Shown: positions 3,689-6,368 of the stretch, in pieces
How positions within the stretch are numbered: position 1 is the first letter of the stretch
How the letters are laid out: each line of letters starts with the position of its first letter
DNA from: Clostridia bacterium
GTDB taxonomy: Bacteria; Bacillota; Clostridia; UBA1212; UBA1255
Direction of reading: 5' to 3'
Assembly (NCBI GenBank): GCA_017560765.1
Contig: JAFZEI010000025.1
Coordinates: forward strand, 1-40,231
Length of the DNA stretch: 40,231 nucleotides
Notes under the pieces: model-generated
Told to the model about the DNA's origin: nothing
Seen by the model: the letters and a program-made list of their open reading frames with translations, nothing else
Database searches by the model: none
Program-made: the position numbers and the translations under genes

Positions 3689-4903
3689 TTATGCTTTTTT
3701 TTCGCAAAAAGCATAATGTGAGCGATCGTATATTATCATTGCATAATTAATAACATTTTCACCGAAACGATATTGTAATTGATCCATTGTGGATTCTATT
3801 TTTTCGGATTTGTTTATTCTTTGTGCTGTTCCCCATAGGTCTAATTGGTAGGGAGTGCCATAGGGGACAAGATTAATTGCACGAACACTGATGGAGCGAA
3901 TATCATGTGTCCATTTATATTTCTTTTGAAAAAGAGCATGTCCTTGTCTTGAAATGGCTAATGAACTTTGTGTAGGTGTGGGTAGGATGCATTGGAATTC
4001 GTGATTGTTGAATTCTGAATCTCTAACAGAGATTTGAATACCGCTTGCAGCCAATCTGTTGGAACGTAACTTTTTTGCAACTGTTTCTGATAAAGCAAAT
4101 ATTAGATGCCATACATCGTCATTGCATTTTAAATCGGTAGGCGTTGTAACACCATGTCCGATGCTCTTAACGGGAGATGAAAAGTCACAATCTGATACGG
4201 GACTGTTCTCTAATCCGTTGGCATATTCCCAAAGTTGAGAGCCGCTTTTTCCTAAAATCTTCTGCAGACATTCCGGAGATTCTTTTGCAAGATCTCCGAT
4301 AGTTTTAATATAAACTGAATTTAATATTTTTGAAGTTTTGCGACCAACTCCCATTAAGTAATCAACAGGTAAGGGCCAAATGTCTTTTTTAAAAGATTTT
4401 TTATCGATTACCGTAACTGCGTTTGGCTTTCTTAAATCTGATGCGAGTTTTGCAAAAATCTTATTGAAGCTCACTCCTACTGATACAGTTATTCCCAGCT
4501 CGGAATGGATTGTTCTTCGTATAAGATTTGCTATTTCTTCACCTGAACCGAAGAGCTTTGTACTTCCCGTTACATCCAACCAACACTCGTCAAGTCCGAA
4601 GGATTCTATTTTATCGGTAAAACTATAATAAATGTCTCTTGCTGCCTTTGAATATCGCATATAAGTGTCGTAGTGTGGTTTTACCGTTATTAAAGAAGGA
4701 CATTTAAGCCTTGCCTGCCAAATTGTTTCGCCGGTCTGTACACCGTATTCTTTGGCTTCGTAACTTTTAGCAAGTACAATACCATGACGATCCTCCGGAT
4801 CTCCGCATACAGCAATGGGTTTGCCCTTTAAACCGGGGTTCTCGGCACATTCTATAGAAGCAAAACAGTTATTTATATCACAGTGAAGTATTATTCTTTC
4901 CAT
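3689..4903 (-). CDS. dinB: Y-family DNA polymerase IV
   Basis: A 404-residue translesion DNA polymerase. The catalytic carboxylates are visible: D9 in HCDINN and D105-E106 in FGLDECWLDV. F14 occupies the steric-gate position. VSVGVSFNKIFAKLASDLRKPN near residues 140-160 is the typical palm/thumb junction. A QLDLW stretch near residue 355 resembles the beta-clamp binding pentapeptide, which suggests recruitment to the replication clamp. ATG 4903 follows AAAGGA. The gene has a consensus promoter (5009-5037) whose spacer holds a CGAAC-type site, and it diverges from an XRE repressor and an ImmA/IrrE peptidase. Damage-inducible expression is therefore likely, though this is inferred. Confidence 0.95.
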   Translation of the reverse strand: MERIILHCDINNCFASIECAENPGLKGKPIAVCGDPEDRHGIVLAKSYEAKEYGVQTGETIWQARLKCPSLITVKPHYDTYMRYSKAARDIYYSFTDKIESFGLDECWLDVTGSTKLFGSGEEIANLIRRTIHSELGITVSVGVSFNKIFAKLASDLRKPNAVTVIDKKSFKKDIWPLPVDYLMGVGRKTSKILNSVYIKTIGDLAKESPECLQKILGKSGSQLWEYANGLENSPVSDCDFSSPVKSIGHGVTTPTDLKCNDDVWHLIFALSETVAKKLRSNRLAASGIQISVRDSEFNNHEFQCILPTPTQSSLAISRQGHALFQKKYKWTHDIRSISVRAINLVPYGTPYQLDLWGTAQRINKSEKIESTMDQLQYRFGENVINYAMIIYDRSHYAFCEKKA

Positions 4904-4946
4904 TTCTTTGTTCCTTTCTTTTTCTTTTGTTTTTTACATTTTGCTA

Positions 4947-4975
4947 TTGACAAGCAATGCGAACGGTTGTATCAT
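4947..4975 (+). promoter_or_regulatory. Promoter of the xre-immA operon
   Basis: TTGACA (4947-4952) and TATCAT (4970-4975) are spaced by exactly 17 bases and point towards xre. Site A (4960-4973) covers the 3' half of the spacer and most of the -10. Transcription would start near 4982 and run through the dinB promoter, giving a leader of about 120 bases. Confidence 0.6.
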
Positions 4976-5061
4976 AAAAGCGAACGGTGATTCGTTGTTG
5001 TGAGAGGGATTATAACACGAACGTAAATGCGTGTCAACACCCTAAAGCGAATAAATTTTCG
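4960..5061. promoter_or_regulatory. Array of four CGAAC-type operator-like sites
   Basis: Four 14-bp elements share a CGAAC-N4-nTTCG pattern. A is at 4960-4973 (CGAACGGTTGTATC), B at 4981-4994 (CGAACGGTGATTCG), C at 5018-5031 (CGAACGTAAATGCG) and D at 5048-5061 (CGAATAAATTTTCG). Site B is the closest to a palindrome and differs at one position from CGAAC-N4-GTTCG, the core of the Gram-positive LexA/DinR box. A lies in the xre promoter, C fills the dinB promoter spacer, B lies between the two start points and D lies upstream of the xre ribosome binding site. They could bind LexA, the XRE protein, or both. Confidence 0.6.
5009..5037 (-). promoter_or_regulatory. Consensus promoter of dinB
   Basis: On the minus strand, TTGACA (5032-5037) and TATAAT (5009-5014) are perfect hexamers with a 17-base spacer. 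The spacer (5015-5031) contains the whole of site C. A promoter this strong on a mutagenic polymerase gene implies tight repression. Transcription would start near 5002, heading towards dinB, opposite to the xre promoter. Confidence 0.75.
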
Positions 5062-5101
5062 CATAAGTATTTATAGCGATTTATAGAAAGTGAGTTTTAA
5101 A

Positions 5102-5509
5102 ATGCAAATAGGTGATAAAATTAGAAATGCAAGAAAAAGAGCCGGTTTTACACAAAAAGAGTTGGCGGCAAAAGTTAATGTAACAACGAGATGCATTCAG
5201 TATTATGAGGCTAATATCAGAAAACCTCAAAGTACGGAGATCATCATTAAGCTTGCGGCAGCTTTGAATGAAGAAGTAAATTATTTTCTTTCTGAGCAAG
5301 AGCTTGCCATAATGAGAGAAAACGAGATGTTTATCGGAGAAGCGGAGTCAAAATATGGCAAAACAGGTAAGGCACAAGCAAACCATATTATTGAGAGTGC
5401 ACAGGCATTGTTTGCAGGCGGAGAACTTGCGGAGGAGGATAAAGAGGCATTCTTCAGAGCGATAACAGAGATATACTTTGATTCAAAGAAGAATAGTCAA
5501 CAAAAATAG
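5102..5509 (+). CDS. XRE-family HTH repressor
   Basis: A 135-residue DNA-binding protein. Residues 1-60 form a Cro/CI-type helix-turn-helix: IGDKIRNARKRAGFTQKELA, then VTTRCIQYYEANIRKPQ as the recognition region. The remaining 75 residues are acidic and helical and probably serve dimerisation or contain the cleavage site for the peptidase. I prefer ATG 5102, which follows GAAAGTGAG by about 7 bases, over GTG 5090, which lies within that ribosome binding site. The ImmA/IrrE gene starts one base after its stop, so the two form a repressor-antirepressor pair of the ImmR/ImmA or DdrO/IrrE type. The likely targets are the operator-like sites upstream. Confidence 0.88.
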   Translation: MQIGDKIRNARKRAGFTQKELAAKVNVTTRCIQYYEANIRKPQSTEIIIKLAAALNEEVNYFLSEQELAIMRENEMFIGEAESKYGKTGKAQANHIIESAQALFAGGELAEEDKEAFFRAITEIYFDSKKNSQQK

Positions 5510-5510
5510 C

Positions 5511-6020
5511 ATGAGTCATTATATCGCGGAGAAGGTAACTCAATTAAAAGAGGATTATGGCACAGATAATCCTTTTGATATTCTTGAAGCGCTTGGAGTA
5601 ACGGTAAAATACAACTATGAGTTTACTAAAATAAAGGCGTTCTATTATATTATGTTTGGGAAGCCTTATGTTGTTATAAATGGTAATTTAGATACCTACC
5701 AAATGAGAACGGTTGCAGCGCACGAATTGGGACACCACATTTTGCACAGCGATCTTGCCGTGAATTCACCTTTAAAAGAGTTGGGTTTTTATGATATAAA
5801 ATCAGGACCTGAGTATGAAGCAAATATTTTTGCTGCAAATCTGCTCGTTGATGATGAGAGGTTGGAGAGCATGTTGCAAGAGGAATCGGACTTTTTTAGA
5901 ATATGTGCAAATTTGGAGGTTGCACCTGAGTTAATGGCCTTTAAAATGAAAACTTTTAATGTGAAAGGGAAGCGTTATAATATCCCAATTACATTTAAAA
6001 GTGATTTTTTGGCAAAATAA
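5511..6020 (+). CDS. ImmA/IrrE-family zinc metallopeptidase
   Basis: A 169-residue protein of the ImmA/IrrE (COG2856) group. The zinc motif HELGHHILH lies near residue 76, and a later acidic EYEANIFAANLLV supplies the third metal ligand, the typical arrangement in this family. Known members cleave an XRE repressor encoded beside them (ImmA on ImmR in ICEBs1, IrrE on DdrO in Deinococcus) after DNA damage. I start at ATG 5511, one base after the xre stop, with translation likely coupled; an in-frame TTG at 5478 is less likely. No integrase or phage gene is nearby, so this looks like a resident chromosomal pair, not an element's immunity region. Confidence 0.88.
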   Translation: MSHYIAEKVTQLKEDYGTDNPFDILEALGVTVKYNYEFTKIKAFYYIMFGKPYVVINGNLDTYQMRTVAAHELGHHILHSDLAVNSPLKELGFYDIKSGPEYEANIFAANLLVDDERLESMLQEESDFFRICANLEVAPELMAFKMKTFNVKGKRYNIPITFKSDFLAK

Positions 6021-6125: not shown

Positions 6126-6368
6126 ATGAATCAAAAAAAGAATAATAATGGAGATTTTAATAACAGAATAACTAATCCCGTAAATCCAAATGAAGGAATT
6201 TTAAAAGGTTTGGATTATGCAAAAGATGCTTTTTTGCATAATCCGATTGCTTCAGCTACAGATACCACTGGCTATGTTCAAAGAGTTCCGTTTGGAGAGT
6301 TTGAGGCAGGTTCTTACGAAGATATGTTTGATGTTCCTGTCTCTTACGAGAAAGAAAAAAGGGATTAA
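6126..6368 (+). CDS. Small hypothetical protein
   Basis: An 80-residue hydrophilic protein that I do not recognise. The N-terminus is rich in Asn and Lys, followed by a middle with alternating aromatic and small residues (DYAKDAFLHNPIASATD) and an acidic, tyrosine-containing tail. It has no signal peptide, no membrane segment and no cysteine. AAGAGAGTG lies at a suitable distance before ATG 6126, and a good terminator follows at 6391-6432, both of which support a real gene. It is 105 bases downstream of immA on the same strand and could be read from the same transcript. No function is proposed. Confidence 0.6.
   Translation: MNQKKNNNGDFNNRITNPVNPNEGILKGLDYAKDAFLHNPIASATDTTGYVQRVPFGEFEAGSYEDMFDVPVSYEKEKRD

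Follow-up and report, generated by a model that had tools for sequence, protein, structure and literature searches.

A candidate protease-released repressor switch for translesion synthesis at a divergent dinB/xre-immA locus in Clostridia

Which regulator controls a translesion polymerase gene that stands back to back with the genes of an XRE repressor and a metallopeptidase, in a genome in which no LexA was detected? This question is raised by the window, a stretch of 40,231 nucleotides from a gut bacterium of the Clostridia (contig JAFZEI010000025.1), for which a first-pass annotation had proposed a stand-alone DNA-damage switch serving the host and controlling dinB directly, with a three-gene architecture for which it knew of no description. 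All three genes were confirmed at the annotated places, with dinB diverging from xre-immA across a 198-bp intergenic gap and a single base separating xre from immA (Table 1). The operators, the 80-aa ORF downstream of immA, the absence of LexA and the operator sites elsewhere in the genome go beyond that annotation.

Table 1 Features of the dinB/xre-immA locus (positions in the window)
Feature	Position	Strand	Description
dinB	3689..4903	-	Y-family translesion polymerase, 404 aa
predicted xre-immA promoter	4947..4975	+	TTGACA-17-TATCAT, 11/12 consensus matches
putative operator O1	4958..4975	.	TGCGAACGGTTGTATCAT; within xre promoter spacer and second hexamer
putative operator O2	4979..4996	.	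AGCGAACGGTGATTCGTT
predicted dinB promoter	5009..5037	-	TTGACA-17-TATAAT, 12/12 consensus matches, TG before second hexamer
putative operator O3	5016..5033	.	CACGAACGTAAATGCGTG; within dinB promoter spacer
operator-like O4	5046..5063	.	AGCGAATAAATTTTCGCA
xre	5102..5509	+	ImmR/DdrO-type repressor, 135 aa; HTH_3 2e-10 (Pfam)
immA	5511..6020	+	M78 zinc peptidase, 169 aa; Peptidase_M78 6e-13 (Pfam)
80-aa ORF	6126..6368	+	without family; downstream of immA, kept in two congeneric genomes

DinB carries the Pfam domains IMS (9e-45), IMS_C and IMS_HHH_1 and intact catalytic acidic residues (motifs DINNCFAS and GLDECWLD), which place it among the DinB-like Y-family polymerases, and a clamp-binding-like QLDLW lies close to its C-terminus. 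The xre frame starts with ATG at 5102, with an in-frame GTG at 5090, and immA with ATG at 5511. The predicted XRE structure (pLDDT 91.7) comprises the HTH, a long helix (65-103), an LFAGGE loop and a last helix (111-134); the loop is invariant and is a candidate cleavage region, since DdrO is cut in a comparable C-terminal loop. The annotated HELGH metallopeptidase is borne out by the Peptidase_M78 match, the HELGHH motif with a downstream Glu, and an HExxH that is invariant in 51 relatives. Its predicted fold (pLDDT 90.6) is nearest to PprI-ssDNA, CapP and IrrE (Foldseek probability 0.99-1.00, with E-values of only 0.025-0.07), and the GAF domain of IrrE/PprI proper is absent from the 169-aa model. 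By inspection, the 40-kb window outside the triplet consists of housekeeping genes (neighbours include proBA, DUF3792, an amidohydrolase gene, mraZ-mraW-ftsL-pbp-mur genes, pta/ackA, serS and dapA), and no integrase, relaxase or phage genes were seen in it, in agreement with the first-pass annotation.

The predicted promoters of dinB and xre-immA face apart within the intergenic gap, which holds four copies of one putative operator, about CACGAAC-N4-GTTCGTG, with one copy in each promoter spacer. Other divergent dinB/xre loci likewise show palindromes over both promoters, with differing sequences (GAAGTTnAACTTC, GGAAAnnnnTTTCC, ACAATCnGTTTGT and GAAACTnAGTTTC). When the loci were compared one by one, irrespective of their kinship, five genomes paired the XRE recognition helix VTxRCIQYYE with CGAAC sites, the helix VTSRSIQHYE of locus L091 again went with CGAAC/TTCG half-sites, VTRRVICSYE with GAAGTTnAACTTC, and GLG(T/F)NTI(I/S)NYE with ACAATCnGTTTGT. 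The operator sequence thus tracks the recognition helix at a constant position, as would be expected if the adjacent XRE exerted direct control, and this points to XRE as repressing transcription in both directions. For each region, the three best palindromes were scored and compared with 60 local shuffles. In 12 of 23 regions, or slightly more, no shuffle scored as high; these include region L008, which picked A/T runs and is to be discounted. In the same test, the window's own region was not significant (score 29 of 36, reached by 16 of the 60 shuffles), nor was any palindrome of L012, L016, L091 or L097, so the case for the operators rests on the cross-locus comparison, which carries more weight than this locus taken singly. 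These sequence patterns give good support to direct repression of dinB by the XRE protein, in keeping with the direct control that the annotation had supposed.

The own genome was examined by pattern and family searches. The pattern RCGAACNNNNRTTCGYK, with one mismatch allowed, matched it 10 times, against 18/15 in the reversed control; four of the ten matches lie at the dinB/xre locus, and of the remaining six, three fall in promoter spacers that precede copies of a single gene. Searching with the protein showed that the own genome has one complete copy of this gene along with fragments where contigs end, and that G001 has an ortholog; all five 5'-complete copies (four in the own genome, one in G001) have the operator site in their promoter. 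The family members of the own genome are L161:1501-2433 (G000 C18) and copies at the contig ends of C31, C82 and C86. We read the C-terminus of the 311-aa protein (PDFTLF...VYFVELFG...K) as PD-(D/E)xK nuclease-like; no family in Pfam or PHROGs names the protein, and the C-termini of PADLOC PDC-S68 match it. In G005, a LexA-less genome of the sister genus, the xre locus has a Y-family protein without the first catalytic Asp (HCKVDNFYIS); a second dinB of this genome retains the Asp and stands back to back with a SRAP gene, the two separated by three operator sites in the same layout. The Y-family proteins encoded next to xre in the sister genus (L053:2599-3819 and L054:2766-3842) are without the first catalytic Asp or the segment around it and may therefore be inactive, ImuB-like relatives.

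A scoring matrix trained only on xre-locus sites was applied to held-out promoters, namely the nuclease-like ones (the own four and the G001 ortholog) and the dinB2/SRAP sites of G005. Compared with 172,675 background positions, they ranked above or close to the highest, at or above the 99.99th percentile; these loci had first been found by the pattern search, so that their gene content is independent of the discovery and the score is not. The same operator class is thus found at nuclease-like promoters within the genus and at dinB2/SRAP in the sister genus, and what had been annotated as a stand-alone switch looks, from these sites, like a small LexA-independent damage regulon. Matrix scoring found no clear or strong operator in recA promoters and does not support recA as a regulon member. 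A perfect palindrome, CACGAAAAATATTTCGTG, precedes recA in the own genome (L217) and in G002 (L216), where it can be read either as a weak match to the operator or as the stem of a terminator, and is absent before recA of G003, G005 and G007. The own genome also encodes a second Y-family polymerase of 502 aa (L220:1038-2998, G000 C53), followed by a weak YolD-like gene, with no operator in its promoter.

We propose as the probable reading that the locus is a protease-released XRE repressor switch for translesion synthesis, for which we infer binding, repression, cleavage and a damage signal. XRE dimers would bind three or four of the palindromic operators over both divergent promoters, holding dinB off and limiting their own operon; upon DNA damage, ImmA would cut XRE, probably in its C-terminal dimerisation part with the LFAGGE loop as candidate site; the cut XRE would leave the DNA, allowing transcription of dinB, xre-immA and other operator-bearing genes, until newly made XRE restores repression. 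In genomes without LexA, such as this one, the switch would provide part of the usual role of SOS control. Cleavage by ImmA and induction by damage are suggested by analogy with ImmR-ImmA, DdrO-IrrE and CapH-CapP; IrrE/DdrO and CapP/CapH are activated by damage or ssDNA (PMC8072749, PMC10904395). PprI requires its GAF domain for activation by ssDNA (PMC10904395), and the lack of this domain in ImmA makes the damage-sensing step less certain. We therefore weighed whether the same repressor-protease switch answers to another trigger, with a zinc or redox change or a partner activating ImmA and dinB being induced in general stress. The missing GAF domain speaks for such a trigger, as do a zinc response suggested for IrrE-like proteins without GAF (PMC8072749) and the finding that ssDNA does not stimulate PprI without GAF (PMC10904395); we nevertheless consider it unlikely, given that the target genes detected belong to damage tolerance (dinB, SRAP and nuclease-like).

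The LexA family model TIGR00498, positive in controls, detected no LexA in the own genome (95.75% complete), in G001, G002, G005, G006 and G007 of the same family, or in G053, a one-contig genome carrying the triplet; G004 gave a peptidase-domain match only. Other triplet genomes do carry LexA, and the module thus also coexists with it. Since the operator, CGAAC-N4-GTTCG at its core, resembles the LexA box of the Firmicutes and the Bacillus LexA/DinR box, a missed LexA-type repressor is conceivable, one that controls dinB through these boxes with xre-immA as a passenger under the same control. The search with one family model in incomplete assemblies leaves some room for it; we nevertheless regard this explanation as quite improbable, as LexA was not found in six genomes of the family, the boxes vary among triplets in step with the XRE helix, and the LexA gene of G003 is preceded by a different palindrome. 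The latter gene encodes a divergent LexA-like protein (L219:575-1180) with an S24 peptidase and an IclR-like HTH, and its palindrome, AGGAACGAAACGTTCCT, is unlike the XRE operator. A LexA-box regulon was rejected, because a search for GAACNNNNGTTC gave 16 matches in the own genome and 48 in the reversed control, hence no enrichment. In the sample of relatives, as read from the combined searches, LexA is absent in 6 of 11 triplet genomes and in 17-19 of 86 others; five of the six LexA-less triplet genomes belong to one family, the association by family is not established, and we rejected the triplet as a general LexA substitute. More tentatively, we suggest that LexA may have been lost in this clostridial lineage and that XRE-ImmA may have taken its place, controlling a small damage regulon (dinB, xre-immA and the nuclease-like family, with dinB2-SRAP in the sister genus) through a box resembling the old LexA box, with the same cassette on conjugative elements and phages.

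Conservation across Clostridia, which the first-pass annotation had named as a check, was found. ImmA of the window was matched in 33 of 97 related genomes, and among the loci fetched, ten besides its own have dinB divergent from xre-immA, and these span the genus itself and further families within the class. Two sister species of the genus have the triplet at the same chromosomal site, flanked by DUF3792 and the amidohydrolase gene at one end and by the small ORF at the other; mraZ-mraW is visible in the genome whose contig extends that far, and in the sister genus the amidohydrolase gene is still near the locus. When named genomes were searched with an alignment of XRE sequences, 80 loci were obtained, with a near-adjacent divergent dinB at 29 and xre-immA-dinB all in one direction at 3; as the query alignment was built from dinB-linked XREs, 29/80 is not an unbiased frequency. 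The conserved site together with this recurrence indicates more than chance. Divergent triplets also occur in a Riflebacteria MAG and a related-looking MAG, bacterium ADurb.Bin157 (L055/L056), and in a Synergistaceae MAG (L112). The cultured commensal Faecalicatena orotica has a divergent locus as well (L071). Small ORFs that resemble ImuB-C by eye, with no Pfam match, adjoin dinB or xre at L112:1615-1911, L119:1359-1634 and L121:3505-3849, and L112 also has a SRAP gene after immA. A second recurrent partner divergent from xre-immA is a protein of about 190 aa with no Pfam family (L085:3222-3782), with similar partners in L059, L076, L089, L093-L096, L100, L104, L105, L113 and L129.

Of the 29 divergent-dinB loci, 15 form one closely related group, most of which share about 96-98% identity over 4.4 kb although they come from different genera, and this near-identity indicates that the copies are mobile. 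Besides the triplet, the mobile 4.4-kb block (L078:650-5078; L222) encodes another M78 peptidase and has small ORFs. A Monoglobus plasmid record carries a related copy together with tet(40), tet(O/32/O) and the gene of a site-specific integrase, and one phage has dinB<-xre. A service to the host, as annotated, agrees with the chromosomal location of the window's pair; the architecture as such is not confined to host chromosomes. We hold it very unlikely that the locus is a remnant immunity module of an ICE or prophage that captured dinB and has no present host role. The near-identical copies across many genera, the triplet on an integrase-bearing element with tet genes and the phage would fit such an origin, whereas congeneric species keep the chromosomal neighbours and intact reading frames at 63-87% identity, integrase or mobile genes accompany L222 and not the own 40 kb, and other operator sites lie elsewhere in the genome. 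That xre-immA is a COG2856-Xre toxin-antitoxin-like pair, a kind listed among putative TA modules (PMC2701414), with dinB nearby by chance, is scarcely credible, as the divergent dinB with shared operators recurs. With its three-gene arrangement recurring on mobile elements as well as in many bacteria, the proposed repressor switch probably offers a second route to mutagenic repair that does not depend on LexA.

Among known systems, the triplet belongs with the ImmA-ImmR, IrrE-DdrO and CapP-CapH kind. ImmR-ImmA of ICEBs1 (Bacillus subtilis) shares the adjacent XRE repressor and short GAF-less M78 peptidase, and ImmR is the top solved-structure match of the window's XRE, with DdrO also among the matches; in contrast to the host chromosomal locus facing dinB, ImmR controls excision and transfer of its element. 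IrrE/PprI-DdrO of Deinococcus is alike in its tie of repressor and M78 peptidase to DNA-repair genes, its operators in promoters and its peptidase fold, and differs in the GAF-like domain of IrrE, a regulon that includes recA and another operator motif; this radiation response is marked by the repressor motif at recA and other core repair genes, whereas the recA promoters here showed no strong site, beyond a weak palindrome in two genomes. CapH-CapP of CBASS islands is likewise a damage-responsive XRE-peptidase pair, and CapP is the best PDB sequence match of ImmA, whereas its output is an antiphage system. UmuDAb of Acinetobacter is a UmuD-like protein and not an XRE cut by a metallopeptidase. 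Together with DdrR it is described (PMC7273328) as a local repressor that controls error-prone polymerase genes without LexA, the point of likeness to the present locus. The open-access literature searched contained no description of this triplet, of its operators or of its occurrence in Clostridia without LexA, in line with the annotation; the linkage of peptidase and polymerase as such is older, since DUF955 (M78) peptidases had been tied to DinB and ImuB-C by genomic linkage in 2013 (PMC3765255). The ImuB-C-like ORFs of L112 and L119 recall that prediction, whereas the XRE repressor, the shared operators and LexA loss are not described in the portion of its text found.

If the proposed switch is correct, a number of gut Clostridia would regulate mutagenic repair via metallopeptidase cleavage of an XRE repressor rather than via RecA/LexA, and mobile elements would carry the same module, one of them with tetracycline resistance genes. 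This bears on the induction of mutation in LexA-less bacteria, and damage sensing by short GAF-less peptidases would become directly testable.
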